Positions 8,230-30,417 of a stretch of DNA of 64,000 nt are shown here, piece after piece. Within the stretch, counting starts at the first letter, position 1, and each line of letters starts with the position of its first letter. The notes below the pieces were generated by a model. The model saw only the letters and a program-made list of their open reading frames with translations, was not told the origin of the DNA and did no database searches. The DNA is taken from NCBI GenBank assembly GCA_021811615.1, contig JAJZNW010000070.1, forward strand, positions 1 through 64,000, written 5' to 3'. The position numbers and the translations under genes were made by a program. The DNA is from Bacteroidota bacterium. GTDB taxonomy: Bacteria > Bacteroidota > Ignavibacteria > Kryptoniales > JAKASW01.

Positions 8230-8700
8230 CGCTGCACCGGGCGTTTCTAATTGCGGCTCACCTCTACCGGTTTCATATTCTGAGTGGCGTCGATTTCAAT
8301 CGATGCCTCTTTTGGGACAGCCTCAAGGTTAACTGAGCGCGGCCGGTTCCGCCGGCACCCTGTCGTACCTAAACATGCGTGTGGTATCGGCGGTGTCGGG
8401 TCTTTCCCCCGGGTCCGCAAAGGCCTGGACGGCTCTGAAGGCCAATTACATTGGGACTAAGACGAGACTAAGCCGGTTCTGAGCACCGTCTCATTCCTTC
8501 CTGTTTTGCCTTCTCGCTGCATGACTGTCGTTTGTGCCGCTAAACTAATGTTGAGTGTGGCGGCGCGGCGAAGGTATAAGGTGCTCTGTACGTACTCGTG
8601 TGGCTGAGTGGATCTGCGTCCCCGAAAACCAATCGGCTTACTGACACATGGGCGAATTCCTCTTTATATTTATGTGTTAATATTCTGAAAGGACATTGAA
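8230..8700. other. 471-bp intergenic stretch, no gene seen
   Basis: No frame here looks coding. It holds two short inverted repeats: TCGAT/ATCGA around 8287-8300, followed by CTCTTTTGGG, a possible weak terminator for the GH127 gene; and GCCGG/CCGGC at 8342-8356. The last 60 bases before the next ATG are AT-rich (TTTATATTTATGTGTTAATATT) and probably contain its promoter, but no clear -35 box is seen. Confidence 0.4.
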
Positions 8701-9348
8701 ATGAAAATAGAAATCTGGTCTGACGTCGTTTGTCCGTTTTGTTATATCGGAAAAAGAAAACTCGAGAACGCATTGGAACAATTTCAGCCGAAGGAAGATG
8801 TCGAGATACTATGGCACAGCTTCCAGCTCGATCCATCGGCAAAGAGGGAAGAGGGAAAGGACATCTACGACCATCTCGCTGAGAAGTACGGACAGGACCG
8901 CGAGTGGGCTTTGAACGTGAATAGTAATCTGGTTGAGAACGCGAAGAAGGTCGGCCTTGATTATCACTTCGAGAGAGTGATACCGGCAAATACTTTCGAC
9001 GCGCACAGGATGATACATCTTGCCGCCGCACACGGGTTGCAGGGGAAAGCCGAGGAGCGATATTTCGCCGCTTATTTCACAGAAGGAAGGAATCTGGGCG
9101 ATCCCTCCGCTTTAGCTGAGCTTGGAGTCGAAATCGGACTTGACGGGGAAGAAGTGAAACGAACGCTTGAGTCGTCGGACTATGCCGACGCCGTCAGAGG
9201 AGATATCGAAGAAGCGGAGTCGCTCGGGATAAACGCCGTTCCGTTCTTCGTGTTCAACAGGAAATACGCGATATCCGGTGCGCAGCCCACACATCTTTTC
9301 CTTGAGACGCTTCAGAAAGTTGCGGAGGAAGAAAAAGCGGCTGCCTGA
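8701..9348 (+). CDS. DsbA-family oxidoreductase, FrnE-like
   Basis: This 215-residue cytosolic protein has a thioredoxin-fold start (MKIEIWSDVVCPFCYIGKRKLE) with redox motif C11-P-F-C14, then the helical insertion usual for DsbA/HCCA-isomerase-like proteins. The cis-proline loop is visible as GINAVPFFVFNRKYAISGAQP. Length and motif order match the FrnE/YwbO subgroup of COG2761, thought to act in thiol-disulfide or stress redox chemistry; the substrate is unknown. There is no signal peptide. AAAGGA precedes the ATG. It converges on the porin gene at 9358 with only 9 bp between the stops. Confidence 0.9.
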   Translation: MKIEIWSDVVCPFCYIGKRKLENALEQFQPKEDVEILWHSFQLDPSAKREEGKDIYDHLAEKYGQDREWALNVNSNLVENAKKVGLDYHFERVIPANTFDAHRMIHLAAAHGLQGKAEERYFAAYFTEGRNLGDPSALAELGVEIGLDGEEVKRTLESSDYADAVRGDIEEAESLGINAVPFFVFNRKYAISGAQPTHLFLETLQKVAEEEKAAA

Positions 9349-9357
9349 CCGGCCCGA

Positions 9358-10677
9358 TCAGATGCTGACGTGCGCTCTTATCCCGAAGACGTTTACCGGG
9401 CCGCGCTGCGGGTTGTACGCGGGATTTACGATGTACTGGTAGTCTGCGCTTAAGGCGAGCATCTTATTGAGCTGGAACCGGTAGAACGTTTCCAGAACTT
9501 CGGCCGGAGCGTACTGGGGAAGCTTTCCGTCTCCGATTATGAACCCATATCCGCCGCTGGCGAGGTACTGACGGTGAGCTTTCGATATTCCGTCGACTGC
9601 TATTCCAATTCCGAACGCATCGTGCTTTCGCCCGAAGAATTCCGGTTTGGTGAGAATGCCGGCAGACACTGTGCGGTCGATCTCGGTGTAAGACCACGAT
9701 TCATTCTGGCCGTCGTTCCATCCTATCCTGGCAAACAATCCGGTGTTTCTGCAAAGACTCTGTTGAAAGTTTATTCCGAATCCGACCTTGGTCCTGCCGT
9801 ATTGCCTTGTCAATGCTATGTTGTGATTGTACTGAGGGTCGTTTGTAGCCTCCGCATAATTTCCGAAATGTCCGGTGTTGTAGTAAAGGAGCAGGCGGAC
9901 TTTCCCGCGCCGGTCACCGAGCCGATATGCGTAACCGCCTTGCAGGTTGAAACTGTGAGCCCTGGCTATATTAGGATCGTAGCTGGGGCCGTTCGCCGAA
10001 CTTGTCTGCATTGTTGCGGCGAATCGAAATGTAAAGATCGGGCTCAGGTATTCCGCCACGACTCCTGGGATATATCCTCGAGTGTCCGCGGCATAATCCC
10101 ATGCGCCGTTGTTCATCAGTGCCCAGTTCATGAACTGGGTCCTCGCATCATTGCTATATTTGTTTTTGTCGAAATAGCTGGCGAGGGATATTTTCCCGGC
10201 TATGATCGTTAGCATGGTCTCATCGGATGAGAGCCCTCTACCGGTAAGGCCGAAAGTTTTCACAAGGTAAAATTCGCCCGACGAGAATACCGGTGTCGGC
10301 TTTCCGATACGAAACGCGTCGCCGTTGGGGAAAGCGGCGAGTCCGACGGTGCCGCTCAACGCTTCTCCTCCGCTCATTTCCGGATTGAACACCGCCCTGA
10401 ATTGGTCCGGCAAATAGAGATCGAAGTGGAAGTTCGAGGTGAGCGACATTGCCGGCCGGTCTCTTGATAGGAAGCTGTTTTTGCCTGAGTAGGGGGAATG
10501 GAAGTTGTTGTTTGCCTGCTCTATGAGGGTCTGTTGAAAATGGAATTTCAGCTTGACGCCGTTATGGCCTCGATTTGTTGCGGCGAATGACGGGATCGCC
10601 CCACAGAAGAAAACGAGAAGGGTAAGAAGAACCGAACGTACGGACCTGGCCCGTCGATTTGCTGACGACAGAAGCAT
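9358..10677 (-). CDS. OprB-family carbohydrate porin
   Basis: The 439-residue precursor has a signal peptide (LLTLLVFFCGAIPSFAA) and a 16-strand-porin-like sequence. The C-terminal half is very typical of OprB (PF04966): LFARIGWNDGQNESW, AFGIGIAVDGIS, LASGGYGFIIGDG, ETFYRFQL and YQYIVNPAYNPQRGPVNVFG, ending in RAHVSI. Family members let sugars or other small solutes across the outer membrane. Genes nearby encode GH127 and GH3 enzymes and secreted peptidases, consistent with use of plant-type carbohydrate, but no direct operon link exists. It is a single gene. Confidence 0.85.
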   Translation of the reverse strand: MLLSSANRRARSVRSVLLTLLVFFCGAIPSFAATNRGHNGVKLKFHFQQTLIEQANNNFHSPYSGKNSFLSRDRPAMSLTSNFHFDLYLPDQFRAVFNPEMSGGEALSGTVGLAAFPNGDAFRIGKPTPVFSSGEFYLVKTFGLTGRGLSSDETMLTIIAGKISLASYFDKNKYSNDARTQFMNWALMNNGAWDYAADTRGYIPGVVAEYLSPIFTFRFAATMQTSSANGPSYDPNIARAHSFNLQGGYAYRLGDRRGKVRLLLYYNTGHFGNYAEATNDPQYNHNIALTRQYGRTKVGFGINFQQSLCRNTGLFARIGWNDGQNESWSYTEIDRTVSAGILTKPEFFGRKHDAFGIGIAVDGISKAHRQYLASGGYGFIIGDGKLPQYAPAEVLETFYRFQLNKMLALSADYQYIVNPAYNPQRGPVNVFGIRAHVSI

Positions 10678-10995
10678 GTGTTGCCTTTCCCGATAGTATT
10701 ATCTGCATAAAGTTCGAATCCCGTAACGGATTCAAATACATGCAACCACTCCGTTCCAATAAAATTAACAACCGGAAAGAGAGCGGGATGGTTCCAGTGT
10801 CGTCAGTTTATAGGGTCTGTTTCAAGTGAAGGGAGGAACTTCTGCGGATCGGTGCCGGCGGGGGGCGACTGAATACCCCGGCATAGGAAACTAATCATAG
10901 TGAGTAGAGTGGTCATGGATGATGCGGCCGGCGGCCGGTTAAGCCGAGGCTCCGGCCTTTCTTAAAAAGCCGAACGCCGGCCGCATCAGAACGTA
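10678..10995. other. Intergenic region between two minus-strand genes
   Basis: This 318-bp stretch separates the porin start from the end of the prolyl oligopeptidase gene, both on the minus strand. It should hold the porin promoter; an AT-rich ATAATACTAT-like stretch (complement of 10690-10705) is the best -10 candidate, without a clear -35. The oligopeptidase terminator hairpin lies at 10921-10987. I see no coding frame. Confidence 0.4.
10921..10987 (-). terminator. Long hairpin downstream of prolyl oligopeptidase
   Basis: Perfect 13-bp inverted repeat GATGCGGCCGGCG (10921-10933) and CGCCGGCCGCATC (10975-10987), enclosing smaller GC-rich pairings and a run TTTTTAAG when read on the minus strand. 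It begins 9 bp past the oligopeptidase stop, so it is probably its transcription terminator or an mRNA-stabilising structure. Confidence 0.6.
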
Positions 10996-13155
10996 CTATT
11001 TTACTCCGAGATTATATGCCATGAACGAAAGTACATCGGCTGCCTGGGCGATGCGCTTGTCGGTCGGCATGTAGTTGTGACTCGTTTTCGTCTCGACGCG
11101 AATCAGTATCGGATTGCCGCATGCCTGGTCGTGCTGCATCGCAGCCGTGAACTTGTACGAGTGACTCGGCACGACACGGTCATCATGGTCGGCGGTCGTG
11201 ACGATGGTCGGCGGGTAGCAGGTACCGGGCCTGATGTTCTCGACCGGCGAATATTTTATGAGCCACCGGAATGCCGTCGAGTCGTCAGAAGATCCATACT
11301 CAGGCACCCAGCCCACGCCGGCGGAGAACTTCTGGTATCTCAGCATATCCATCACGCCCGCGCCCGCATAGACTGCACCAAAGAGATCGGGACGTTCGGT
11401 CTCGCAGGCGCCGACAAGGAGACCGCCGTTCGAGTAACCTTCGATACCGAGCTTCGGCGTCGATGTGTACTTTTCCTTTATGAGATATTCCGCGGCAGCT
11501 ATGAAGTCATTGAATACGTTCTGCTTCTTGCCCAGCATGCCGGCATGATGCCATGCCTCGCCGTATTCTCCGCCGCCGCGGATGTTCGCGACCGCGTAGA
11601 TCCCGCCCATCTCAAGCCAGACTATGTTGACCGGGCTGAACGACGGTGTGATGCTGATATCGAATCCGCCATAACCGTACAGGAGTGTGGGGTTTTCGCC
11701 GTTCAGCTTGGTCCCTTTCTTCATCGTGATGAACATCGGGATGACCGTTCCATCCAGGGAGTGGTAGAAGACCTGCTTCGTGACGAAGGCTTTCGGATTG
11801 AAGTCGACACGAGGTGCATGAAATGCCGTGCTCCTGCCGGTTCTGAAGTCATATCTGAAAACCGTAGTCGGGTAAAGGAAAGATGTAAACGAGTAGAACA
11901 TCACCGGTAAATCTTCTCGGCCGTTCATCTCGCCGACAGTTCCGAGACCGGGAAGTTTCAACTCCTTCTGATGTGTGCCGTCGAGCGAATAAAAGGAGAC
12001 CTCGCTCTTCGCGTCAACGAGGTAGTTGACGACGATATGCCCGCCGGCGAGCATTGAGCCCTGGATGGCGTTCTTCGTTTCAGGAACTACTGTCTTCCAT
12101 GCTTCCGGAGATGGGTCGTCGATATTGAACGAGACAATTCTGCGGTTAGGCGCGCCGAGCGTGGTCTGCAAATAGATCGTCTTCCCGACGTTCCCAATCG
12201 GGTAGTACTCGGCATTATCCTTGGTGAAAAGCGGCGTGACGGGCGAAGAAAGATCGGGATGCTTAGCATCTTTCAAGTCGACGTAGTAGACCTTGTTCCG
12301 CGATTCGGTCCCCTTGTTGAGAATGATGAACAGGTAATGACCGTCGTCAGTGACGCTGCCTCCGACGTACCACCCGGGGAAGTCCTTCAGGCTGTAGAAG
12401 AGTTTGTCTTCGCTCTGCGGAGTTCCGATCTTGTGGTAGTAAAGCATCTGGCCCACCGCTTCGGACATCAGCGCGTCTCCTTTCTTCGGCTCAGGGAAGC
12501 GGGAGTAGAAGAATCCTTTGCTGTCTTTCGTCCAGGCGATGCCTGAGAACTTCACCCACTTCACCGTGTCCGTGAAGTCTTTGCCGGTGGCGATGTCCTT
12601 CACGTGGAATTCCTCCCAGTCGGCGCCGCCTTCGGACAGGCCGTAGCAGAAGTATTTGCCGTTGGGCGATGCGTCGTATTCCAAAAGGGCGATCGAGCCA
12701 TTCGGAGAGAGTTTGTTCGGATCGAGGACCAGCTTGGCTCTCCCTTTGACCATTTTCTCCATGTATACCGGGCTCTGGTTTTGCAGGCCCGTATTTTTGC
12801 TGTAGAAGAGAATGCCGTCGTGTTCGCTCGGGACACCGACCTTCGGATAGTTCCAAAGCGTGGTAATCCTTTTCTGAATCCGACTCCTGTATGGAATCCT
12901 GTCGAGGTAGGAGAAAGTTACCTTGTTCTCGGCTTCGACCCATTCTTCGACCTTCGGGCTGTTTTGTGCTTCCATCCATTGGTATGGGGCAGGCACTTTG
13001 GTCCCGAAATAATCGTTGACGACCGTGTCCCGAAATGTGTTGGGGTACTTTAACTGTTGAGCCATTGAAATCCCTGGTAAAGTCATGAAGGCGAAAATGA
13101 TGCAGGTTCCGAGAAGTGCCATAAGTAATTCTCGTTTCGTACTTCGCGCGATCAT
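10996..13155 (-). CDS. Secreted prolyl oligopeptidase (S9A family)
   Basis: The 719-residue protein has an N-terminal signal peptide (MALLGTCIIFAFMTLPGISMAQ) followed by the seven-bladed propeller and the C-terminal alpha/beta-hydrolase domain of S9A peptidases. The catalytic triad is visible: Ser in GIEGYSNGGLLVGA, Asp in TTADHDDRVVPSHS and His in ETKTSHNYMP. GGGGEYGEAWHHAG-like and GYGGFDISI segments are conserved family features. It should cleave proline-containing oligopeptides in the periplasm or outside. RBS AGGAGGT precedes ATG 13155. A GC-rich terminator follows. It is transcribed alone. Confidence 0.95.
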   Translation of the reverse strand: MIARSTKRELLMALLGTCIIFAFMTLPGISMAQQLKYPNTFRDTVVNDYFGTKVPAPYQWMEAQNSPKVEEWVEAENKVTFSYLDRIPYRSRIQKRITTLWNYPKVGVPSEHDGILFYSKNTGLQNQSPVYMEKMVKGRAKLVLDPNKLSPNGSIALLEYDASPNGKYFCYGLSEGGADWEEFHVKDIATGKDFTDTVKWVKFSGIAWTKDSKGFFYSRFPEPKKGDALMSEAVGQMLYYHKIGTPQSEDKLFYSLKDFPGWYVGGSVTDDGHYLFIILNKGTESRNKVYYVDLKDAKHPDLSSPVTPLFTKDNAEYYPIGNVGKTIYLQTTLGAPNRRIVSFNIDDPSPEAWKTVVPETKNAIQGSMLAGGHIVVNYLVDAKSEVSFYSLDGTHQKELKLPGLGTVGEMNGREDLPVMFYSFTSFLYPTTVFRYDFRTGRSTAFHAPRVDFNPKAFVTKQVFYHSLDGTVIPMFITMKKGTKLNGENPTLLYGYGGFDISITPSFSPVNIVWLEMGGIYAVANIRGGGEYGEAWHHAGMLGKKQNVFNDFIAAAEYLIKEKYTSTPKLGIEGYSNGGLLVGACETERPDLFGAVYAGAGVMDMLRYQKFSAGVGWVPEYGSSDDSTAFRWLIKYSPVENIRPGTCYPPTIVTTADHDDRVVPSHSYKFTAAMQHDQACGNPILIRVETKTSHNYMPTDKRIAQAADVLSFMAYNLGVK

Positions 13156-13510
13156 TGGACCTCCTGTTTTTTTTGTACGGAAAAATTACGGCTTCAAGAT
13201 TTTTGTCACTGAAGCATGCGCGCCTCTTTTGGAGTGTCGTGACTGTGAATTTGCTCCGGTGCCCGTTTTCGTTGCACGAATTGAATTACCTCGGGGGCAA
13301 GGCACACAGTCATTACGTTAAATATCGCATCGGTGTCCCCAGCATGCAAACGATTTACCTGATGCCTGAGGGACTATGGACTGGAGTACCGGTGAAGTTG
13401 AGTCGCTTGCCGGTTATTCCGGGAAGATGGAACAAAGCTGTGTCCATAAGGGTTTATACTTGGAACGACGTGGTAGAGAATATTAGACATACAAAACAGA
13501 GGAACAATCT
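13156..13510. other. Divergent intergenic region, promoters expected
   Basis: This 355-bp gap lies between the divergent prolyl oligopeptidase and DoxX genes. It contains the oligopeptidase RBS (CCTCC at 13162) beside a T8 run. On the plus side, CTTGGAACG...GAATATTAGAC lies 50 bp before the DoxX start and is a loose -35/-10 match with a short spacer. No gene or strong repeat is seen. Confidence 0.35.
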
Positions 13511-13927
13511 ATGGAAGCTGCGAAGAGTATATCTGAAGACCTCGGGAAATTAGTCCTGCGGTTGACCGTTGCCGGCCTTATGCTGTTTCACGGCGTGTCG
13601 AAAATCGAACACGGTGTAGCCTGGATGGCAGGTCCGCTCGCGGCAATTCACCTGCCGGCTTTCATAATGTACGGCGCTTATGTCGGCGAGGTAATTGCGC
13701 CCATCTTCATCATATTCGGACTTTATACGAGGATTGCAGGGCTAGTCCTGTCGTTCGACCTTTTCATGGCATTTGTCCTTGTGACTCACTCGCACTTTTT
13801 CATGCTCAATCCGGCTGGAGGCTGGGCTCTTGAACTGGATGCTTTTTACTTCCTCGGTGGAATATGTCTCTTCCTTTTTGGCGCAGGACGTATCAGCCTC
13901 GGGGGCTTGAAGGGGAAGTTTAATTGA
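13511..13927 (+). CDS. DoxX-family membrane protein
   Basis: This 138-residue integral membrane protein has four hydrophobic segments: LVLRLTVAGLMLFHGVSKI, LPAFIMYGAYVGEVIAPIFIIFGLYTRIAGLVLSF, FDLFMAFVLVTH, and YFLGGICLFLFGAG. The LRxxxGxxLxxHGxxK start and the GEVxxPxxIxxGLxTR motif are characteristic of DoxX (PF07681). The family's biochemical role is poorly known; members are linked to redox or thiosulfate chemistry. RBS AGAGGA lies before the ATG. A TGCCTC/GAGGCA hairpin follows at about 13938-13953. Confidence 0.85.
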   Translation: MEAAKSISEDLGKLVLRLTVAGLMLFHGVSKIEHGVAWMAGPLAAIHLPAFIMYGAYVGEVIAPIFIIFGLYTRIAGLVLSFDLFMAFVLVTHSHFFMLNPAGGWALELDAFYFLGGICLFLFGAGRISLGGLKGKFN

Positions 13928-20582: not shown

Positions 20583-21101
20583 ATGGGTACCGGTCAGACT
20601 CTGCTGACGATTGCAGCTATCATGCTTCTCGGTACTGTAATCCTCACCACGGACAGGACCATCAACGATACAGGGCAGGTTCTGCTCAATTCCAACATAG
20701 GTCTTGAAGAGGTCTCGCTGGCTACATCGACCATCGAGGAAGCCGAGGGGAAAGCATTCGATGAAAACACAGACACCAACAATGTGACGCAGCTTTCGCA
20801 GCTCACGCCTGCCAACCTGCTCGGCCAGGAAAACGGAGACCCCAACGATTTCAACGATTTCGACGATTACAACGGACTGAACCATGACGGGCTTCTGAGA
20901 ATCGACACCGTTACGGTAGACTCGGTAGTAACCGGAATATATTACGACTCGACTCGCGTCTATTACGTCGATCCTGCAAGCGGGCTCGATAATCCGGTCG
21001 ACCATCGCACATGGTACAAACTGCTCGATGTGTGGATTTGGAGCAAAGACGTTCCCGACACTGTCAAGATGCACACCGTTTACGGTTACTGGTATTTTTA
21101 G
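20583..21101 (+). CDS. PilV-like minor pilin, cassette 1 (type A)
   Basis: This 172-residue protein has one N-terminal hydrophobic helix (GQTLLTIAAIMLLGTVIL) and a globular C-terminal part. LATSTIEEAEGKAFDEN resembles the PilV/GspI pattern in which an a-helix is followed by FD(E). The end WIWSKDVPDTVKMHTVYGYWYF recurs in cassette 3. The leader would be only MGTG before Q at +1; residue 5 is Thr, not the Glu of true pilins. The gene is first of a three-gene cassette and is followed 11 bp later by a PilW-like gene. The assignment to the pilin superfamily is inference from helix, order and neighbours. Confidence 0.6.
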   Translation: MGTGQTLLTIAAIMLLGTVILTTDRTINDTGQVLLNSNIGLEEVSLATSTIEEAEGKAFDENTDTNNVTQLSQLTPANLLGQENGDPNDFNDFDDYNGLNHDGLLRIDTVTVDSVVTGIYYDSTRVYYVDPASGLDNPVDHRTWYKLLDVWIWSKDVPDTVKMHTVYGYWYF

Positions 21102-21112
21102 GAGAGGATGCG

Positions 21113-21718
21113 ATGGGCTCAAGTACAATGTTAGACATAATCAGCTCGATGCTGATAAGTGGATTCCTGCTTTTCACGGCTCTTCAAATGGACCAGCAGT
21201 CCATCAAGACTACTTACTACTCAGAGACAAACCTGACAGTTCAACAGAATCTGACTTCGCTCGTTGAGATTCTGGAATACGATTTCAGAAGGATGGGATA
21301 TTGCGCAGATCCCAACGTTCAACCGAATCCCGACATGTACATTGTAAAAGGCAGTTCAAGCTATATATGGTTTGTGGCGGACATGGATAATACGGGCGTG
21401 CTGGACACAGTGAAGTACTTTCTGGGGACGAATCCGATACCCGGATGTGCCAACAGAAACGTCAGGATGCTTTACAGGCAAATCAATAGCGATCCTCCTG
21501 TCGGCTCGAATCTTGGTGTCGTGCAGTTTGACTTAAAGTACCTTGATGGATTCGGGCAGGCTCTTCCCACACCGATCTACGCACCATCGCAGGTTCAGAT
21601 GGTCGAGATCACTCTGAAAATAGAGCCGACAGCGGCTTATGGCGATACCACTTACAATCAGAACTTTGCGTTGTGGAGGCAGACCAGATTGATTTCACGC
21701 AACTTAAGGAACAGGTAG
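21113..21718 (+). CDS. PilW-like minor pilin, cassette 1 (type B)
   Basis: The 201-residue protein starts MGSSTMLDIISSMLISGFLLFTAL, a pilin-type helix with Asp where Glu5 is expected. It continues with TVQQNLTSLVEILEYDFRRMGYC, typical of PilW proteins. The acidic loop VADMDNTGVLDTVKYFLG matches the PilW motif (F.AD.D.DG..D...Y) and may bind calcium. GGAGAGGATGCG precedes ATG 21113, which is chosen over longer upstream forms because it places the helix at the N-terminus as in the two paralogues. It is the second gene of the cassette and ends with a QTRLISRNLRNR tail shared with cassette 3. Confidence 0.65.
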   Translation: MGSSTMLDIISSMLISGFLLFTALQMDQQSIKTTYYSETNLTVQQNLTSLVEILEYDFRRMGYCADPNVQPNPDMYIVKGSSSYIWFVADMDNTGVLDTVKYFLGTNPIPGCANRNVRMLYRQINSDPPVGSNLGVVQFDLKYLDGFGQALPTPIYAPSQVQMVEITLKIEPTAAYGDTTYNQNFALWRQTRLISRNLRNR

Positions 21719-21727
21719 GGTACAGGT

Positions 21728-22972
21728 ATGGTTGGAAGAGGCACACTCATCGTAATACTCGGGTTTAGTCTTATATTCGCGCTGGCGGGCGGATATTGGG
21801 AAAGGACGAGTACGGACGCCGTGGACAATTTCGTCCAATACTACAACGAGACGGTAGCTCATAACATAGCAGTGAGCGCCGCAAACGTCGCAGCCGACAC
21901 CATCTTCAGAAACCCGGGGACTCCGGCCATCTCGATGTCGGGGAATTTTGCCGGAGGGTCTTACGATATTTCTACTTCGTCGTACGATAAGTTCGGTGTG
22001 ACCGATACCATGATTACTTCCGTCGGGAATTACGAGGATCTCCATGATACAGTTCAGGTATTGTTGAGCCCGTATTCTTTCACCAAGTATGCCTTCTTCT
22101 CGGTGATAGAGTCGGGCATTTACTGGATCACAGGCGATACGATGTGGGGACCGTATCACACCGAGTCGAAACTCTTCATATCCGGAAGCCCGGTCTTTTA
22201 TGGGAAGGTTACCACGAGGCTCGGAACGAATCCGAAACTGCCGAGCAGAAGCGCCCATCCGTACTTCTACGGAGGTTACCAGTCGGGAGTTAGCATTAAT
22301 CTTCCCAACAGTCTTTCGACCCTGCAGACGGCTTCACAGGGAGGGAAAGTCTTTTCGAACCCGGGTAGCGGTCAGTATGATGTCTATCTGACATTCAATT
22401 CCGATGGAACTGTCACATACAAGGATAACACGATGTCTCAGGACTCGACAGTTCCTCTCAGCACGCTTGCACCGAACGGCGTGATTTACATTTCAAAAGG
22501 GAATGCCCATGTCCAGGGCGTAGTTAACGGAAGGGCCACCGTTGTTGCCGACGGGAGCTCTGGACTTGGTTACGGGAATGTCTATATCGACGGGAACATC
22601 ACATATGCACACGATCCCTCGACGGGACCCAGCAACGATATGCTCGGTCTGGTGGCCAACAACAACGTTACGATTTCTGAGACCTCGCCACCGATGCAAA
22701 ACGTATACATCGACGCAGGAATTTTCGCGCGGTCGGGCGCTTTTGGCTACCAGGGATATAACGATGTAAATGCCGGACCTCTTGGAAGTATTTATCTCTA
22801 TGGGTCAATTACCAATTATCAGAGAGGGGACGTAGGTCAATTCAATTCCTATAGCGATCAGTTGGAGAGTGGCTACCACAAGCACTACCGGTATGACAAT
22901 CGGTTCGATACAGAAGCGCCTCCTTTCTTCCCGACGGCTTCAGGCTTTCAGATAGTCGCGTGGCGAGGTTGA
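21728..22972 (+). CDS. PilX-like large minor pilin, cassette 1 (type C)
   Basis: The 414-residue protein has an N-terminal helix (RGTLIVILGFSLIFALAGG) and a long beta-rich domain. The C-terminal half resembles PilX/DUF4900-type proteins: MLGLVANNNVTI, YIDAGIFARSGAFGYQGYN, IYLYGSITNYQRGDVGQFN, and a GYHKHYRYDNRF...PPFFPTASG end. DUF4900-like proteins accompany minor pilins in other phyla. No canonical prepilin peptidase site is seen; MVGRG could be a very short leader. It is the third gene of the cassette, 9 bp after the PilW-like gene, and is probably exported and exposed at the tip of a pilus-like fibre. Confidence 0.6.
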   Translation: MVGRGTLIVILGFSLIFALAGGYWERTSTDAVDNFVQYYNETVAHNIAVSAANVAADTIFRNPGTPAISMSGNFAGGSYDISTSSYDKFGVTDTMITSVGNYEDLHDTVQVLLSPYSFTKYAFFSVIESGIYWITGDTMWGPYHTESKLFISGSPVFYGKVTTRLGTNPKLPSRSAHPYFYGGYQSGVSINLPNSLSTLQTASQGGKVFSNPGSGQYDVYLTFNSDGTVTYKDNTMSQDSTVPLSTLAPNGVIYISKGNAHVQGVVNGRATVVADGSSGLGYGNVYIDGNITYAHDPSTGPSNDMLGLVANNNVTISETSPPMQNVYIDAGIFARSGAFGYQGYNDVNAGPLGSIYLYGSITNYQRGDVGQFNSYSDQLESGYHKHYRYDNRFDTEAPPFFPTASGFQIVAWRG

Positions 22973-23287
22973 GACGAAGGTACTGAGGGGAGAGGTGTCA
23001 GCTGCAAGATGGCATCCATCAGTACCAAAGAGGTGTTTTCTTTCCGGTTGCCGCCGGGACTCATTGGACACGGTCTCATAACGAGCAAGGGATCGTCCCG
23101 GAACTTTCGCTTAAGGCGGAAAGAATACCTGTAGCCTGTAAATATTTCCGACCTTTTCCAAATCCCACTCCCATTTCACCAAGAATCGCACCTTCTTGCC
23201 CGGCATACATATTGCCGATTCATATGCGGGTGAGGAGTTGTTATTGTTCCCCGAATGCACCCGAACCATTGATCGAGGAGAAAATAA
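22973..23287. other. Intergenic region before pilin-like cassette 2
   Basis: These 315 bp contain no convincing gene. TCGCACCTTCTTGCC near 23189 looks like a -24/-12 site but its spacing is 1 nt short. TCGAGGAGAAAATAA supplies the RBS of the next gene. No terminator with a T run is seen after cassette 1. Confidence 0.35.
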
Positions 23288-23797
23288 ATGGGTACCGGAC
23301 AGATGCTGCTGGCGCTGCTGGCGCTTACCATCCTTGCGAGCGTTACCATATCCGCTAATCAGCTCTTGCTCAATCAGACAGATACCGTGTACGGTTCTGA
23401 AGCGATGATCACCGGTACTGCAATCGGACAGGCGATGATTGAAGAGATTACCGTAAAATACTTCGACCACAATGTCCTTCCCCCTTTGACTACAGACAGC
23501 GCCTCAGCATTTACTCCACCCGATCGACTCGGACCCGACGCCAGCGATGTGCCCGGGGTAGACACCACTTATGACGATATCAGCGACTACAACGGATTTG
23601 TTGATTCGGTATCGACGCCCCGACTCGGATATTTCAAAAGGTATTGCAGCGTATACTATGTTGATGGAAACGGGGACAGCAGCACGGTTCAGACCTTCTA
23701 CAAGAAAATTGTCGTGTTAGTTGAGAACCCGTATATCAGCACTCCTACTCATACGCTTGAGCTGTCCGATATCGTGTCTTACAGGTATAAAAACTAG
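23288..23797 (+). CDS. PilV-like minor pilin, cassette 2 (type A)
   Basis: A 169-residue paralogue of the type A proteins at 20583 and 25991: MGTGQMLLALLALTILASVTI starts with the same MGTGQ. The GTAIGQAMIEEITVKYFDHN segment matches the others' LATS.I.EA....FD. The C-terminal end is shorter (LELSDIVSYRYKN). Residue 5 after the putative cleavage is Ala. The stop codon TAG lies inside the CTAG target repeat of the MITE-like element, which inserted right behind the gene. RBS GAGGAGA precedes the ATG. Function as part of a pilus-like assembly is inferred. Confidence 0.6.
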   Translation: MGTGQMLLALLALTILASVTISANQLLLNQTDTVYGSEAMITGTAIGQAMIEEITVKYFDHNVLPPLTTDSASAFTPPDRLGPDASDVPGVDTTYDDISDYNGFVDSVSTPRLGYFKRYCSVYYVDGNGDSSTVQTFYKKIVVLVENPYISTPTHTLELSDIVSYRYKN

Positions 23798-23925
23798 GAA
23801 GCCGGCCGAAATGTCTAACCACGAAGTCACCAAGACACCAATTCAGCTCAATTGATGCAGAACCGACAACTTTTCTTTGTGCCTTCGAGACTTTGTGGTT
23901 ACATAGGCGGCTTTCGGCCGCGCTT
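23798..23925 (-). mobile_element. MITE-like palindromic element, copy B (128 bp)
   Basis: Same element as at 6617-6744 in reverse orientation. Flanking direct repeats are CTAG (23794-23797) and CTAA (23926-23929), one base changed. The ends read GAAGCCGGCCGAAA and the complement of AAGCGCGGCCGAAA. It lies between the first and second genes of pilin-like cassette 2 and separates genes that would otherwise be about 10 bp apart. It carries no coding capacity, but the long hairpin could process or attenuate the operon mRNA. Confidence 0.8.
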
Positions 23926-23937
23926 CTAAGGACGAAC

Positions 23938-24528
23938 ATGGATACAATGATAGATACGGCGGGTTCGATTATAATGGCGGGGCTAGTGATGCTGGCAGTG
24001 TTGAAAATGAATGCAGCCTTGTCCGATGCTGGCTCAGATACCAATGTCTCAGTGATAACTCAGTCGAACATCACCGCAATCGCAAATACAATTACCTATG
24101 ACTTTTACAAAATCGGCTACCGGGCTTCACCTGCGATATTGTTGGCGGACTCGAATGCCATCGTCTTTCGCGCCGACCTCGAACAAGACGGGCATCCGGA
24201 CACAGTACACTATTGGGTCAGCGCTCCTTTGTCGGGATCGGGCCTTAATCCGAACATGAGGATTTTATACCGCTCTGTGAACAACGGTACCCCTACTGGG
24301 GCAACGCTTGGACAGACATACTTCAACCTTCAGTACTTCGACAGTACGGGAGCCAGGCTAAACATATCGGGTGCTGATACAACAAATCTGAGCATCCTTG
24401 CAAGGATAAAGTCCATCAGAGTTGCAGTTTCGGTGGAGAGTCCCAATAAACTCATGTCTGATTCGACTTATGCCGGAGCATATTGGGAAGAGTATATCAG
24501 CCCAAAGAACCTTCGGACCCTGATGTGA
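23938..24528 (+). CDS. PilW-like minor pilin, cassette 2 (type B)
   Basis: This 196-residue protein starts MDTMIDTAGSIIMAGLVMLAVLKM, with Asp in the Glu5-like position, followed by VITQSNITAIANTITYDFYKIGYR and the PilW-like acidic loop FRADLEQDGHPDTVHYW. GARLNISGADTTNLSILARIKSIRVAVSVES matches the C-terminal part of its paralogues. ATG 23938 follows only 9 bp after the MITE-like target repeat, with AAGGAC as a poor RBS. It is clearly more diverged from the cassette 1 and 3 copies than they are from each other. Confidence 0.6.
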   Translation: MDTMIDTAGSIIMAGLVMLAVLKMNAALSDAGSDTNVSVITQSNITAIANTITYDFYKIGYRASPAILLADSNAIVFRADLEQDGHPDTVHYWVSAPLSGSGLNPNMRILYRSVNNGTPTGATLGQTYFNLQYFDSTGARLNISGADTTNLSILARIKSIRVAVSVESPNKLMSDSTYAGAYWEEYISPKNLRTLM

Positions 24529-24542
24529 TTGGAGGATAGGCA

Positions 24543-25580
24543 ATGGGAAGATTTGCAATCATCGCAGTCGTTATGCTTCTGTTCTCACTCTCGATAGTGG
24601 GATACAATATGAACAGGCGAGCGACATCTGCCGTGAATAATTACACGAATTACTACGGCGAGACGCGCGCAGAGGACGTCGCATCGAGTGCGGCCGAAAT
24701 TTTCATCCGGAAACTGAACGACGACCCCACAATGCGGGGAACGTACACGATCGATCCGTTACTTGAGGGAAGCGCGACGGTTCAGATAGATTCCATCACA
24801 GGCATTTATGATACCCTGGCCGGTCAGACGCTGGATACTCTCATGATGACAAGCATCGGGGTCTATGATGGAGACAGCGATGTGATCATGAATAAACTTT
24901 ACCCGGTTCCTCTTCAGATACCGTCACCTCCGGGTGCCGTATCGATGTCCGCCGGCAAGTCAGTGACAATTGAAGTCGGGGGAAACGCGACGACCAGCGG
25001 TATCGACACTAATGTAATAAATGGCTCGCCTGCTCCCGACTCTGTTGCCGGTGTTGCAATTAACTCGGCGACTCCATCGTCAAACATATCGGTGAACGAC
25101 AACGTTTTCGGCAGGGGAGGCATGGTACCGGATACGATGAGGGTATCTGGCTCGCCGAACTATACAGCGTTTGCCAATGCGATGATTCGACTTGCCAAAG
25201 TATACAGCGGCCAGACATTCAGCTCCGGCGCACTCGGTACCGATGCGTCACCGCAGATAACATACTTCACGGGGAACACAAATATTGCGGGGCCCGTTAC
25301 CGGCTCCGGGATACTAATCGTAGACGGGTCGCTGAACATTTCCGGGAAATTCACATTTCATGGACTGGTAATTGTTTACGGGACAACTATAATTTCCACG
25401 TCTTCAACATCGTTCACTCAGGAAGGCAGTTCTGCAATCTATGGCGGCGTCGTCGTGGCAGGGGAGAACACGACCTACTCCCAGAGAGGAAACTCACTCG
25501 TCCGGTACAGTAAAGCTGCGATCCAAAACGTGCAGGATAAGACTGTCGGCAAGTATCTCATCATGGATTGGTGGCAATAG
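24543..25580 (+). CDS. PilX-like minor pilin, cassette 2 (type C)
   Basis: At 345 residues this is the shortest of the three type C proteins. It has an N-terminal helix (MGRFAIIAVVMLLFSLSIVGYNMN), a YYGETRAEDVASSAAEIFI stretch shared with its paralogues, and a C-terminal beta-helix-like part (ILIVDGSLNISGKFTFHGLVIVYGT). That part and SAIYGGVVVAGE are typical of PilX/DUF4900-like pseudopilin partners. It lacks the GYN-K-Y-YDPR...PP-FP end of cassettes 1 and 3. GGAGGATAGGCA precedes the ATG, giving tight spacing behind the PilW-like gene. Confidence 0.6.
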   Translation: MGRFAIIAVVMLLFSLSIVGYNMNRRATSAVNNYTNYYGETRAEDVASSAAEIFIRKLNDDPTMRGTYTIDPLLEGSATVQIDSITGIYDTLAGQTLDTLMMTSIGVYDGDSDVIMNKLYPVPLQIPSPPGAVSMSAGKSVTIEVGGNATTSGIDTNVINGSPAPDSVAGVAINSATPSSNISVNDNVFGRGGMVPDTMRVSGSPNYTAFANAMIRLAKVYSGQTFSSGALGTDASPQITYFTGNTNIAGPVTGSGILIVDGSLNISGKFTFHGLVIVYGTTIISTSSTSFTQEGSSAIYGGVVVAGENTTYSQRGNSLVRYSKAAIQNVQDKTVGKYLIMDWWQ

Positions 25581-25990
25581 TACTTTTGAACCAAGCTGTT
25601 CCACGATAGAGCTACCTTTCGAGTAGCGCCGTCCCTTCGCACCAGTTCCCAGAGTTCCCTTACATTCCGGCATTCCTTTTTTGCTTTGATCCAGGACACA
25701 TAGTCCTCTCGGGCGGTTGCATTCCAGAGAGGTGCCCGATATATTTTCTGCGAGTAGAATACTACTCGATCAAAAAGAGTCGTGTGAAGGGCAATGATCC
25801 GAGGTTCAAACAAATACTTCGGGGGAGCGGGCGGCAAAAATCACATTCTGCCAAGGCCATTTGACGTGGAAATCCGCCACGAGGCTTTACATTGTGGCCC
25901 TTCAACTACTGAAAAGCGGGGGCGCCGGAAAACGCTTAAGAACATTCTCCCCGTAACGGGACGGGGAAACCAAAGAATGGAGATAAGTTG
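25581..25990. other. Intergenic region before pilin-like cassette 3
   Basis: This 410-bp gap has no supported gene. It holds hairpins GCTAC/GTAGC (25611-25627), likely ending cassette 2, and CGAGTAG/CTACTCG (25751-25768). The 17-bp repeat ACATTCCGGCATTCCTT lies at 25662-25678. A GTGG/CCAC repeat sits near 25867-25881, and a CCCCGT/ACGGGG leader hairpin about 30 nt before the next start. A minus-strand frame of 120 codons crosses it but overlaps the end of the cassette 2 gene and has no recognisable features. Confidence 0.4.
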
Positions 25991-26509
25991 ATGGGGACTG
26001 GGCAGATGTTAATGACTATAGCGGCAATGCTATTGTTGGGAACTGTCATACTGGGTACAAACCGCGGCATCAACGCGACTCAGTATACGCTTGTGAGAAC
26101 GAATTGTCAGATCGATGCCGTTTCGCTTGCCACATCGATTATCCAGGAGGCGAGCAATCTGCCTTTCGATCAGGCGACAGTAGGCGGTGCGGCGCCCGGA
26201 ATTACCATGTTCACGGCTCCGGATTCACTCGGGCAGGAGAATGGTCCGACCGACCTCGATGATCTTGACGATTACAATGGGCTGAACAACGCCGGCCGGA
26301 TCGAAACCGATACTCTCGGCACAGGGACATACTTCGTACGCACGAGAGTGTCATACGTGGGCGATTACAAGGATCTGAGCGTGAATTCCACAACAAGGAC
26401 AAGACTCAAAAGGCTCGACATCTGGGTCTGGAACAAGGATTTGCCCGACACACTTTTTATGCAGGCGGTGTTCGGGTATTGGTTCTTTGGCAGAGTCGGG
26501 AGGATCTGA
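25991..26509 (+). CDS. PilV-like minor pilin, cassette 3 (type A)
   Basis: From ATG 25991 the 172-residue product starts MGTGQMLMTIAAMLLLGTVILGT, closely matching the cassette 1 copy. SLATSIIQEASNLPFDQAT is the PilV-like helix and FD element; LDDYNGLNNAGRIETDT and IWVWNKDLPDTLFMQAVFGYWFFG recur from cassette 1. A TTG three bases earlier is also in frame, but ATG gives the MGTGQ start shared by all three type A genes. GGAGATAAGTTG is the RBS. Cassettes 1 and 3 are more alike than either is to cassette 2. Confidence 0.6.
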   Translation: MGTGQMLMTIAAMLLLGTVILGTNRGINATQYTLVRTNCQIDAVSLATSIIQEASNLPFDQATVGGAAPGITMFTAPDSLGQENGPTDLDDLDDYNGLNNAGRIETDTLGTGTYFVRTRVSYVGDYKDLSVNSTTRTRLKRLDIWVWNKDLPDTLFMQAVFGYWFFGRVGRI

Positions 26510-26511
26510 TC

Positions 26512-27126
26512 ATGGGGAGCCTTACCTTACTTGACCTGCTTAGTTCAATCGTGGTGAGCAGCCTTTTGTTCCTGACGGCACTTTCGATGAATGAAAGGGC
26601 GTCCAGCAACACTTATGCGGCGCAAACCGCGCTCACTGTGCAGCAGAATATGACCTCAGTCGTGGAGAACCTTGAATGGGATTTTCGGCTGGTAGGTTAC
26701 TGCAACAGCTTCACAAATGCGACCCCATCGAGCGAGTATATCGTATCGGGTGATACGAACTCGATAGCATTTCAGGCCGACCTTAATAATGACGGGGTGA
26801 TGGATAGGGTTCAGTGGTCGCTCGGCACCACCCCTATCCCGGGATGCCCCAATCCGAACGTTCGCATGCTGACGCGGACTACGACCATCAACGGTGTCAC
26901 GAAAACATATAGCTCGAATCTCGGAGTGACAGTATTCCACCTCACTTATTTCGATGCGATCGGAGATACCGTTTATACTCCGTTTACTAATCCGTCCACC
27001 GTACAACTCATTCGAGTCGAACTCAGGCTGGAACCGGTTGCGGCCTACGCCGACACTGCGAACAAGCAGATATTTTCGTCCTGGATGCAAACGAGACTTG
27101 TAAGTAAGAATTTGAATAACAGGTAG
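26512..27126 (+). CDS. PilW-like minor pilin, cassette 3 (type B)
   Basis: The 204-residue protein starts MGSLTLLDLLSSIVVSSLLFLTAL (Asp in the Glu5-like position), continues LTVQQNMTSVVENLEWDFRLVGYC as in cassette 1, and has the PilW acidic loop FQADLNNDGVMDRVQWSLG. The tail TRLVSKNLNNR also matches cassette 1. ATG 26512 follows the previous stop by 2 bp with GGGAGG upstream, so translation is coupled. Longer starts inside the preceding gene would put charged residues before the helix and are rejected. Confidence 0.65.
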   Translation: MGSLTLLDLLSSIVVSSLLFLTALSMNERASSNTYAAQTALTVQQNMTSVVENLEWDFRLVGYCNSFTNATPSSEYIVSGDTNSIAFQADLNNDGVMDRVQWSLGTTPIPGCPNPNVRMLTRTTTINGVTKTYSSNLGVTVFHLTYFDAIGDTVYTPFTNPSTVQLIRVELRLEPVAAYADTANKQIFSSWMQTRLVSKNLNNR

Positions 27127-27136
27127 GAGGCATATC

Positions 27137-28519
27137 ATGGTCGGCAATGGGACTTTGGTTGTGATACTAAGCTTTGCGATGGCTTTTGCGTTTGCAGGGA
27201 GATACTGGAACAAGGAGGCGACTCAAGGTGTGGAGACTGCATCTGCATACTACGGTCAGGCCAATGTTTACAACGTGGCTTGTGCCGGTGCAAATATTGG
27301 GTGCGATTCGCTGTTTGTGAATACCGCGGCCACAAATCTGGATTTGTCTGGAAAGATGGGAAGCGCAAGCTATAGAGTTACGGTTACTCCTATGGCCGTG
27401 GGAAGTGGCAGCGGATGCGTCCTGCGTTCAATCGGTACCTACAGCGATGCTGCAGCCGATTACACTGACGAGGTCGATGTCATCCTCACTATGAGGCAAT
27501 ACTCGCAGTGGCAGTTCTACTCCAACAATGAGAACGGCATCTGGTGGACTACCGGCGACGTCGTGACAGGTCCGTTATACACCAACGACGTATTGAATGT
27601 CTCGGGCAAACCGGTTTTCAACGGCCAGGTCCGCACCGGCGGGGGAGTTGTGTACGATCCCAATGCGAAAAACAAGCCGCAATTTCTCGGAGGTCTCGTA
27701 ACCGGCGGACCAAACAACACGATGGCGAGTGTGCTGCCGACCGCCGCCGCCGCCGGCCCTGCTTCAACGTTCACCAATCCAAACCCAGATCCGAGCAGCA
27801 CTTACGATCTATACATGACTTTCGGGTCTGACGCCAGCGGTGGGAATGTAACATACTACACGACGGGAAAACACGATTCGAGCTACACACAGACATATAC
27901 GACTTTCTGGGGAACTATAAAGACAAGAACGGTAACTGTGACTGTAACCAGCACCACACCAAGTCAGACCGTCCCTTTGAGTACGTTTGCACCTCAAGGT
28001 GTTGTAGCGGTCGTAAATGGAGACGCTCATGTCCAGGGGACTTTGCAGGGCACGTTGACGGTTGTATCCCAGCAAGGCAATTGCGGTAGCGGCAATAGCG
28101 GTAACGTGTTTATCGATGCGGATGTCAAATACAAAACCGACCCGACAAAGAATGCCGGCAGCACCGATATGCTTGGGCTGGTCGCCGACAACAATGTGAC
28201 ATTGACGGGTACGCAGGAGGATGTCACTATCCAGGCTGCTATCTACGCAAAGAACGGATCATTTAGCTATCAGGGATATGATAAGAACGGGCCATACGAC
28301 AAGATCAATCTGTACGGCTCAATTGCGAACAATATCCGGGGGCCAGTCGGAACATTCACCACCGACTGGAGTGGGAAGACCGTTATACAGACAGGGTACA
28401 ACAAGAACTATGTGTATGATCCGCGACTGTCTACTTCAGCGCCTCCATCGTTTCCCTATACCGGGAATTTTGGAATTGTGACATGGCGCGAGGCGCCTCC
28501 GACCATCGTGTACCATTGA
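27137..28519 (+). CDS. PilX-like large minor pilin, cassette 3 (type C)
   Basis: At 460 residues this is the longest type C protein. It starts MVGNGTLVVILSFAMAFAFAG and has a Thr-rich insert near residues 245-280 (repeated TVT/TTT) not found in the others. MLGLVADNNVTLT, IQAAIYAKNGSFSYQGYD, INLYGSIANNIRGPVGTF and GYNKNYVYDPRLSTSAPPSFP match the DUF4900/PilX-like end. Two Cys (GAGANIGCDS and GNCGSG regions) could form a disulfide after export. RBS AGGAGG lies upstream. The cassette ends here; a sigma-54 activator gene converges from the other strand. Confidence 0.6.
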   Translation: MVGNGTLVVILSFAMAFAFAGRYWNKEATQGVETASAYYGQANVYNVACAGANIGCDSLFVNTAATNLDLSGKMGSASYRVTVTPMAVGSGSGCVLRSIGTYSDAAADYTDEVDVILTMRQYSQWQFYSNNENGIWWTTGDVVTGPLYTNDVLNVSGKPVFNGQVRTGGGVVYDPNAKNKPQFLGGLVTGGPNNTMASVLPTAAAAGPASTFTNPNPDPSSTYDLYMTFGSDASGGNVTYYTTGKHDSSYTQTYTTFWGTIKTRTVTVTVTSTTPSQTVPLSTFAPQGVVAVVNGDAHVQGTLQGTLTVVSQQGNCGSGNSGNVFIDADVKYKTDPTKNAGSTDMLGLVADNNVTLTGTQEDVTIQAAIYAKNGSFSYQGYDKNGPYDKINLYGSIANNIRGPVGTFTTDWSGKTVIQTGYNKNYVYDPRLSTSAPPSFPYTGNFGIVTWREAPPTIVYH

Positions 28520-28613: not shown

Positions 28614-30341
28614 TCAAGTATTGCCTGTCCGATGTCCCCCGGAACCTGACTTGAGCTTTCTCCATAGTGTCGACACGTCTATTCCGAGGATGCGCGCGGC
28701 CTTGGATTTATTTCCTCCCGTGAGATTCAGGACTCTTTCGATATAAGCACGCTCCATATCTTCGAGCGACGGATTGGTATCGAGGACGGCTTCGAAAGAC
28801 TTCTTACTCGCATTGACTAAAGCAGGGGGCAAGTGCTGGGGGAGGATATTCCCGTCCGGACTGAGTATCGCAGCACGCTCGATCACGTTTTCCAACTCTC
28901 TCACGTTTCCGGGCCAGCCATAATCCTGCAAGTAGTCGATGCACGAAGAGTCGATGTGCAGATTCCTGATGTGGAGCTTCTTCGACATCCTGTCTATGAA
29001 GAACCTGGTAAGGGGGAGTATATCCTCTTTTCGTTCGCGCAGAGCCGGGACATTCAGCTCCATGACGCTGAGCCGGTAATAGAGGTCCTCTCTGAACTTG
29101 TCTCGCGCGATCATGTCCTGCAGGTTCTTGTTCGTGGCGGCGATTATCCTGATGTCGACCTTTCTCGGTGTGCTTTCCCCGACGCGCATAATCTCGCGCT
29201 CCTGAAGAACTCTCAGTATCTTCAGCTGCATAGTCTCGCTTATGTCGCCTATCTCGTCGAGGAATATCGTCCCTTTATCGGCCTCCTCGAACAGGCCGAC
29301 TCTATCCTTTACCGCGCCGGTGAAGGACCCTGCCTTATGTCCGAATAATTCGCTCTCGAGAAGCGACTCGGGAAGTGCCCCGCAGTTCACCGCAACGAAA
29401 GACTGTTTTGACCGGGGCGACAGCCGGTGAATGTATTTCGCGAGTACTTCCTTTCCCGCACCGGTCTCACCAGTGATGAGAACCGTTGAATCGAAGCGGG
29501 CCACTTTGTTGGCGACGAGAAGGACCTGTTTGTAGGCTTTGCTGTGGATCTCTATGAATGAAGGCTTCGCAGCGGTCCCGAGTGCGGCGATCTCCTTCTC
29601 GTATTTCCTCAGGAGTGAAGACTTCTGTTTCAGCTGATCGGTGAGTTTCTCGATCCGGAGTTTTATGTCGTGTGTCTTGAAATAGCCGATGTACGGCTTG
29701 ATCTCATCGCCCCATGAAGCCAAATCTTTTCCGATGGCATGGCAAACCTTCTCACCCTGCGCCTTGCATGACTGTTCAATAAAATAGACATCGATGCCCA
29801 GGCTCAGCGAAACGAAACCGGTGAAGTAACCTGTTAGAATCCAGCAGATTGGCTGGGCGGCAGGGCCGATGGTGTAAAGATGTTCCAGTGCCTCTTTTGA
29901 ATCATGCCAGCTTATCTCCATCAGGAAATGATGCGAGCCGGGCTCGTATTCCAGTGTGTTTACGATGTCTCTCGCAATCCCTTCAAGAGAATGAAGTTTG
30001 CATCCTGCCCGTATCAATTCTTCCTTATCGTCCCACTTGAAATTATTCATGAGGTCGGAGGCGTCAGCCTGTCCCTGAAAATAGCCGAACCTCGAAAGGA
30101 TGCTTCTCGCGTGTTCGAGACCGGCTGTGTCGATAAGATCTTTTCTTATTTGGGCGAACGCGTGAAGGCTGTGAAGCACTACCTCGCGTCCTCGAAGCGT
30201 CAACGCTCCCTCTGAGAAGTTTACTAACTCGTCTAACCTTAGATCTTCTGCTTTCATGCTTTCAACCGTTGAGATAACAAACTCAGCCCCGCCTTTAATT
30301 TGACCGAACCATCGAAGTATTTTGCTTTGCAATACAACCAT
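28614..30341 (-). CDS. XylR/DmpR-type sigma-54-dependent activator with V4R domain
   Basis: The protein has the order XylR_N (DELVNFSEGALTLRGREVVLHSLHAF...FGYFQGQADA), V4R (GYFTGFVSLSLGIDVYFIEQSC..GEKVCHAIGKD), a coiled-coil linker, an AAA+ sigma-54 domain and a Fis-type helix-turn-helix (NKSKAARILGIDVSTLWRKLK). Walker A is GETGAGKE, the sigma-54 contact loop reads GSFTGA, and Walker B is GTIFLDEIGD. V4R domains bind small, often aromatic, ligands in the family. The start is uncertain (TTG 30353, ATG 30341 or ATG 30257). It is divergent from an M20-acetate kinase operon that carries a -24/-12-like promoter, and convergent with the pilin-like cassettes. Confidence 0.9.
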   Translation of the reverse strand: MVVLQSKILRWFGQIKGGAEFVISTVESMKAEDLRLDELVNFSEGALTLRGREVVLHSLHAFAQIRKDLIDTAGLEHARSILSRFGYFQGQADASDLMNNFKWDDKEELIRAGCKLHSLEGIARDIVNTLEYEPGSHHFLMEISWHDSKEALEHLYTIGPAAQPICWILTGYFTGFVSLSLGIDVYFIEQSCKAQGEKVCHAIGKDLASWGDEIKPYIGYFKTHDIKLRIEKLTDQLKQKSSLLRKYEKEIAALGTAAKPSFIEIHSKAYKQVLLVANKVARFDSTVLITGETGAGKEVLAKYIHRLSPRSKQSFVAVNCGALPESLLESELFGHKAGSFTGAVKDRVGLFEEADKGTIFLDEIGDISETMQLKILRVLQEREIMRVGESTPRKVDIRIIAATNKNLQDMIARDKFREDLYYRLSVMELNVPALRERKEDILPLTRFFIDRMSKKLHIRNLHIDSSCIDYLQDYGWPGNVRELENVIERAAILSPDGNILPQHLPPALVNASKKSFEAVLDTNPSLEDMERAYIERVLNLTGGNKSKAARILGIDVSTLWRKLKSGSGGHRTGNT

Positions 30342-30347
30342 TGCAAA
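30326..30347 (+). promoter_or_regulatory. Candidate upstream activator site (inverted repeat)
   Basis: TTTGCAAT (30326-30333) and ATTGCAAA (30340-30347) are exact reverse complements with a 6-bp spacer. They lie about 80-110 bp upstream of the -24/-12-like site at 30418, the usual distance for an enhancer bound by a sigma-54 activator, and at the 5' end of the activator gene itself. Confidence 0.5.
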
Positions 30348-30417
30348 ATACAAAGCGTTCCCATCAGCAACAATGCAGAATCTCGCGGATTGGAGGTTTT
30401 CTTAGCGCCATAATGTT

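Follow-up and report, generated by a model that had tools for sequence, protein, structure and literature searches.

The stretch of DNA analysed here (the window) comprises 64,000 nucleotides of a Bacteroidota bacterium of the Ignavibacteria (contig JAJZNW010000070.1, positions 1 to 64,000) and carries, at positions 20583-28519 of the + strand, three complete triplets of putative minor pilin genes arranged head to tail (Table 1). Each triplet, hereafter called a cassette, consists of a short type A gene, a type B gene and a long type C gene, and all nine open reading frames (ORFs) are intact and lie where a sequence-only reading of the window had placed them. That reading had also singled out cassettes 1 and 3 as the most alike pair, which is borne out by the aligned identities of all three gene types: 51% for A1/A3 against 31% for A1/A2, 49% for B1/B3 against 32% for B1/B2, and 42% for C1/C3 against 27% for C1/C2. 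A fourth A-B-C cassette was found elsewhere in the genome, on contig C63, giving it four divergent cassettes at two loci.

Table 1. Cassette genes and the inserted element in the window (aa, amino acids)
Feature	Coordinates	Strand	Description
A1	20583..21101	+	putative GspI/PilV-like minor pilin, cassette 1, 172 aa, leaderless, begins MGTGQTLLTIAA; in-frame TGA two codons 5' of ATG
B1	21113..21718	+	putative GspJ/PilW-like minor pilin, cassette 1, 201 aa, begins MGSSTMLDIISS
C1	21728..22972	+	putative large minor pilin at GspK/PilX position, cassette 1, 414 aa, weak DUF4900
A2	23288..23797	+	putative minor pilin, cassette 2, 169 aa; TAA immediately before ATG
130-bp element	23811..23942	no strand	terminal inverted repeats, between A2 and B2
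B2	23938..24528	+	putative minor pilin, cassette 2, 196 aa, begins MDTMIDTAGS
C2	24543..25580	+	putative large minor pilin, short type, cassette 2, 345 aa; in-frame TAG two codons 5' of ATG
A3	25991..26509	+	putative minor pilin, cassette 3, 172 aa
B3	26512..27126	+	putative minor pilin, cassette 3, 204 aa; best NCBIfam match NF007848
C3	27137..28519	+	putative large minor pilin, cassette 3, 460 aa, DUF4900 E 2.3e-5

The A-B-C arrangement occurs far beyond chance and constitutes a genuine genetic unit. In the loci of relatives, the window included, 143 complete cassettes were recovered, with a median intergenic gap of 9-10 bp within the cassette, and of 149 type B genes only 3 that were located away from contig ends stood outside a complete one. 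Type B is present in 112 of 395 Bacteroidota genomes, and carrier genomes possess between 1 and 6 cassette copies. Within the genus, the distance matrices of A, B and C agree closely (r 0.93-0.95, 0 of 2000 permutations), suggesting that the three genes travel together. In the type B tree, cassette 1 clusters with cassettes from the arrays of four relatives. Cassette 2 clusters with two array orthologues as well as with solitary cassettes located elsewhere in two genomes (G011 and G002), and G011 also has, at another locus, the solitary cassette with which cassette 3 groups. Since the nearest out-of-array kin of cassettes 2 and 3 reside at separate loci of other genomes, the array was put together from old, separate lineages; the same out-of-array relatives rule out one recent tandem duplication in place as its origin. 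The window cassettes differ among themselves by about 50-70%, and their orthologues are about 86-96% identical (those of cassettes 1 and 2 in two relatives, that of cassette 3 in one). Such conservation of each cassette in the closest relatives carrying it argues that each is in use.

The sequence-only reading had assigned the nine proteins to the PilV, PilW and PilX minor pilins. This was right in kind, as indicated by the position of the triplet between PilB and PilT genes in relatives, the predicted pilin fold of B1 and the profile match of B3, whose best NCBIfam hit (NF007848, prepilin peptidase dependent protein; E 8.8e-6) falls under the cut-off of that family. The comparisons suggest that A is GspI/PilV-like, B GspJ/PilW-like and C GspK/PilX/ComZ-like, strongly for B, suggestively for C and by position for A, and this reading of the triplet draws on Thermus, where the order is likewise GspI-like, GspJ-like and ComZ-like. 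The motifs pointed out earlier are largely real. Type B proteins share a conserved acidic loop, AD..(N/D)xG..D, with the consensus TDxDxDGxxD over 53 homologues, and type A proteins a conserved F59 D60. The DUF4900 similarity of type C was recovered in 26 of 44 homologues (best E 1.9e-8; C1 at E 0.01 and C3 both under the Pfam cut-off), and it is situated in the middle of the protein, at about residues 111-168, and not at its end as proposed. The type B loop (residues 89-98 of B1 and their equivalents) resembles a calcium-binding loop, so that a calcium-dependent tip may be envisaged. A beta-helix profile (Bactofilin) is touched by 3 of 44 type C members.

Structure models were made for B1 and for the major pilin of a relative (L082) and compared with the Protein Data Bank (PDB) using Foldseek. 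The B1 model (predicted local distance difference test, pLDDT, 85.8) is predicted to have a helix at residues 3-59 followed by a beta sheet, and its top match, the sole convincing structural one, is Thermus Tt1219 (5g23; prob 1.00), itself described by its authors as GspJ-like (PMC5131608). For the major pilin (pLDDT 88.2), a helix at residues 2-55 precedes a four-stranded sheet, and full-length PAK pilin is the only Foldseek match with global similarity (template modelling scores 0.63/0.61). A search of the PDB with sequence profiles returned nothing for type B and only chance-level matches for the major pilin. A model without a pilin helix and head, or a lack of profile similarity, had been named beforehand as speaking against pilins; when this was applied to type B and the major pilin, neither was refuted.

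It had been remarked that no pilus machine is found near the cassettes, which holds for the 64-kb window and not for the genome, where a candidate machine operon lies on contig C91. In relatives the order of this operon is major pilin, PilC, PilB, [A-B-C], PilT, PilM/N-like, PilO-like and secretin, the major pilin being present in one to four copies, and many Ignavibacteria, as well as bacteria from elsewhere in the phylum, have the triplet inside such an operon. Its place between PilB and PilT is seen in loci L171/L082, L175, L180, L191, L123, L126, L189 and L101, and two tandem triplets occupy this place in L185. In family f37 (L184 5850-6350, L186 5718-6233), a gene for a protein of ~170 aa replaces A-B-C between PilB and PilT, and the cassettes are located elsewhere. 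The operon on C91 (L164) has no triplet and comprises the pilin (10265-10723), PilC, PilB, PilT, PilM/N-like and PilO-like genes and a secretin gene ending at 19980. Pfam and NCBIfam firmly support the predicted PilC (T2SSF 9.7e-32), PilB (T2SSE 8.5e-106; best NCBIfam match TIGR02538 PilB 1.4e-133), PilT and secretin (Secretin 2.2e-28). The putative PilT is a second T2SSE protein that passes the NCBIfam PilT/PilU model TIGR01420 (324.9 bits against a cut-off of 319.1), and the pattern used for the AIRNLIRE motif of PilT found no match in it. The alignment complex is weakly supported, through a PilM-like match to Amuc_1101 (2.9e-7), a PilO match (0.0035) and, in a relative, a PilN match (0.0043); for the PilM/N-like protein (L164 16264-17793), Amuc_1101 of Akkermansia is the sole profile match.

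Type B genes and the major pilin of this operon, which we call the MGQQQ pilin after its first residues (MGQQQLLLIVLGVIIVGIA), co-occur strongly: among the 395 Bacteroidota they were found in 112 and 129 genomes, respectively, and both in 109 (Fisher p 5e-72). Genes for MGQQQ pilins are also scattered away from the machine operon, on C19 and C131 of the own genome and in up to ten copies in another (G008), so that the fibres may differ in their shaft too. An immunoglobulin (Ig)-domain lipoprotein (Big_1, Invasin_D3) regularly adjoins the machine operon (L082 17118-20645, L101 12183-13931, L123 1062-2450) and may serve the fibre as an adhesin or as its partner in the outer membrane.

A class III leader peptide is missing from all four pilin classes, the major pilin and types A, B and C. 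Among 78 distinct major pilins, an in-frame stop codon lies upstream in all 78 and within 5 codons in 50, no alternative start exists in 74, residues 1-8 are devoid of Lys and Arg in every one, and Gly2 is present in 77. When Met is counted as residue 1, Gln occupies the canonical place of Glu5, again in 77 of 78, and both the position of the hydrophobic stretch and the Met1/Gln5 register are those of a mature pilin. The same leaderless picture is displayed by 29 further pilins, many of them from other families of the phylum, in two of which the stop touches the ATG. Proteins of types A (n=120), B (n=121) and C (n=128) likewise begin at the residue where a mature pilin would, and for most of them a stop codon lies no more than ten codons upstream; Gln5 is found in 104 of the 120 type A proteins. 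For A2 a leader is impossible, because the TAA abuts the ATG. The formyl-Met may be retained, which would make a charge-neutralising Glu5 unnecessary.

The enzyme that would remove such a leader is likewise scarce. Prepilin peptidase was scored by PF01478 at its cut-off in profile searches across genomes, in which 12 of 14 control genomes were positive. Among the own genome and its relatives (n=61), 39 have an MGQQQ pilin and only 6 have PF01478. In the 395 Bacteroidota the two are distributed independently (129 and 56 genomes; odds ratio 0.97): no PF01478 match above the cut-off was found in 113 of the 129 MGQQQ carriers, nor in 95 of the 109 genomes that have type B as well. Classical N_methyl pilins are encoded by all 16 peptidase-positive carriers versus 2 of the 113 others, and the peptidase of the 16 can thus be attributed to the presence of a separate classical system, such as the type II secretion system (T2SS)-like locus on contig C34 of the own genome (L168, about 8618-13676), with its N_methyl pilin, A24 peptidase, GspE-like and GspD-like genes. 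Peptidase genes hidden in assembly gaps are ruled out as an explanation by single-contig carriers, of which 12 of 13 have no PF01478, and by the genomes of two closed chromosomes, CP053447 (one MGQQQ pilin) and CP070637 (five), which have none either. The peptidase is present in the carriers found outside the phylum (LCP-89, Marinimicrobia and two more among twelve checked), so that its absence is a feature of Bacteroidota carriers. The published account of Melioribacter roseus records both pilA and pilD as missing; the genome deposited under this name (L049, G439) has no PF01478 and encodes three MGQQQ pilins. The absent pilA would then be found in the leaderless family, pilD would be dispensable, and leaderless, peptidase-free pilins plausibly resolve this puzzle.

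The observed gene content, order and co-occurrence, together with pilins that have no leader, a peptidase that is mostly absent and the predicted folds, point to a retractable filament resembling the type IVa pilus (T4aP), made of leaderless, peptidase-independent pilins and equipped with several tip cassettes, a reading to which we assign a probability of about 0.8. Each triplet would provide three minor pilins, which together would initiate the pilus and cap its tip as a small complex; homology to GspI-J-K and to the PilA-ComZ proteins of Thermus makes such a role in priming or at the tip plausible. The pilus itself would be built by the C91 machine, with the MGQQQ pilin as its shaft and PilC, PilB, PilT, the PilM/N-like and PilO-like proteins and the secretin as its apparatus. 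All pilin classes would be translated from mature residue 1, without a class III leader, the subunits would enter the inner membrane by their own N-terminal helix alone, and PilB and PilC would polymerise them directly with no prepilin peptidase step, Gln5 standing in for Glu5 in the major pilin and type A. Extension of the fibre would be driven by PilB and retraction by PilT, with exit through the secretin. Alternative cassettes would then be alternative tips, which may bind different targets, and given that the window cassettes stem from different old lineages, fibres with different tips are the most likely outcome.

Three other explanations were weighed against this leaderless, retractable filament. 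The cassettes might be GspI-J-K pseudopilin sets of a T2SS, dedicated to protein secretion rather than to a surface pilus, as the I-J-K gene order, the structural likeness of B1 to the GspJ-like Tt1219 and the classical locus on C34 would allow. We regard this as unlikely: both a peptidase and a classical pilin are lacking from most genomes that carry type B together with the MGQQQ pilin, the class III leaders expected of T2SS pseudopilins were not found in the pilin classes, and the triplet sits in an operon with PilB and a PilT-family ATPase, and T2SS have no PilT. It is also conceivable on paper that a leader persists in extremely short form, as a Met-Gly dipeptide cut behind Gly2, the near-invariance of this residue in the major pilin recalling Gly-1 of class III leaders. 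This we hold to be very improbable, as position 2 holds Asn instead of Gly in 47 of 120 type A proteins and Val, Ala or Ser in many type C proteins, known class III leaders measure 6-26 residues (PMC4471445), Gln falls on the Glu5 position with Met as residue 1 and not after a cut behind Gly2, and the great majority of carriers have no peptidase above the cut-off to make the cut.

The three cassettes could, finally, be redundant or decaying tandem copies with no separate function, and the 130-bp element inserted between A2 and B2, which separates their coupling, fits such a course. Intact ORFs throughout, orthologues conserved in relatives while the cassettes themselves have diverged widely, and orthologues of cassettes 2 and 3 that stand alone at other loci in other genomes make it a quite improbable account.

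Several points nevertheless count against the filament proposed here. No such pilus has been seen, and the whole proposal is drawn from sequence and prediction. The matching A, B and C trees would also result from linked inheritance by itself. Type A has no match in Pfam, NCBIfam or the PDB sequence profiles, the PDB sequence-profile comparison of type C with ComZ is not significant (E 0.095), and the Foldseek E values are weak both for B1 against 5g23 (2.8e-3) and for the major pilin against PAK (0.56). PilB (at the equivalog cut-off of TIGR02538) and the secretin score below the NCBIfam cut-offs. The own genome, 84% complete, does have a peptidase, albeit beside the classical T2SS-like locus on C34. 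Other carriers could encode a prepilin peptidase so divergent that it falls outside PF01478; since there is no leader, such an enzyme would find no substrate.

The ~130-bp element with terminal inverted repeats (TAACCACRAAGTC...) is present in two copies in the window, the one listed in Table 1 and another at about 6641-6726; in two relatives the A2-B2 junction is only about 8 bp long and has no such element. A putative sigma-54 activator of the XylR/V4R type (28614-30353, - strand) is convergent to cassette 3 and recurs at that place in locus L035; among the relatives inspected, it adjoins the cassettes only in the closest ones. Predicted sigma-54 promoters 5' of the cassettes were in no excess over shuffled sequence, and Rfam gave no match upstream of the cassettes that would indicate a riboswitch or other RNA control.

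The unusual part of this system is the combination of pilins that have no leader peptide with the absence of a prepilin peptidase from most carriers, which the sequence-only reading had not seen. The class III leader has been described as a well-defined, distinctive motif and the peptidase as an enzyme conserved universally (PMC4471445), and type IV pilins are both defined and searched for by means of the two. We found no description of leaderless or peptidase-independent type IV pilins in the literature searched, from which subscription papers and preprints were left out, so that prior reports may exist. It seems fairly probable that a Bacteroidota/Ignavibacteria branch of type IV pili, reaching LCP-89 and Marinimicrobia, makes retractable filaments whose pilins are mature as translated, the initiator Met being residue 1 and Gln5 taking the place of Glu5, that leader and peptidase are consequently not universal, and that duplicated tip cassettes give one machine several tips. 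If so, surveys based on the leader miss the pilins of a large group, and the roles of prepilin processing and of Glu5, as well as the membrane orientation of a pilin without positively charged leader residues, become testable in natural material. The cassettes would further offer a natural series of genomes with one machine and many tips.

Among known systems, the MGQQQ system shares with the T4aP machine extension and retraction ATPases, a platform protein, putative PilM/N/O-like proteins and a secretin encoded in one operon; it differs in having neither class III leader nor prepilin peptidase, in Gln5 instead of Glu5, in the apparent merging of PilM and PilN in one gene, and in that no PilP or PilY1 was recognised. 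The T2SS of Cytophaga hutchinsonii is likewise a divergent type IV filament system, but encodes a Peptidase_A24 in its cluster (PMC5553014). MSH pili are another such system, their loci having no peptidase gene of their own; a survey of type IV filaments found, however, that their genomes have one elsewhere, and they are thought to use this peptidase of another system (PMC6668835), whereas MGQQQ carriers mostly have none. An older review lists only Nanoarchaeota as having no detectable peptidase (PMC4471445), and pilD suppressors of Synechocystis still make a leader (PMC8546353).

For the cassettes themselves, TTHA1218-TTHA1219 and ComZ of Thermus thermophilus (PMC5131608, PMC6561018) offer the same succession of a small GspI-like, a GspJ-like and a large third pilin, the last being a tip pilin with a beta-solenoid (ComZ; PMC6561018); unlike the proteins of the window, those of Thermus are recognised as class III prepilins by the program PilFind (ComZ being atypical), and their role in competence is known. 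Myxococcus xanthus has three minor-pilin clusters (FimU-PilV-PilW-PilX plus PilY1) that serve one machine and form a priming and tip complex, cluster 1 or cluster 3 alone being sufficient (PMC7541494). There, all pilins carry class III leaders and the pilus is a classical T4aP; the window cassettes consist of three genes only, with no FimU, PilY1 or leader. The suggestion that several exchangeable minor-pilin sets would be new does not survive this comparison, since multiple sets already operate on one machine in M. xanthus, and the multiple cassettes described here are best seen as a parallel to them.

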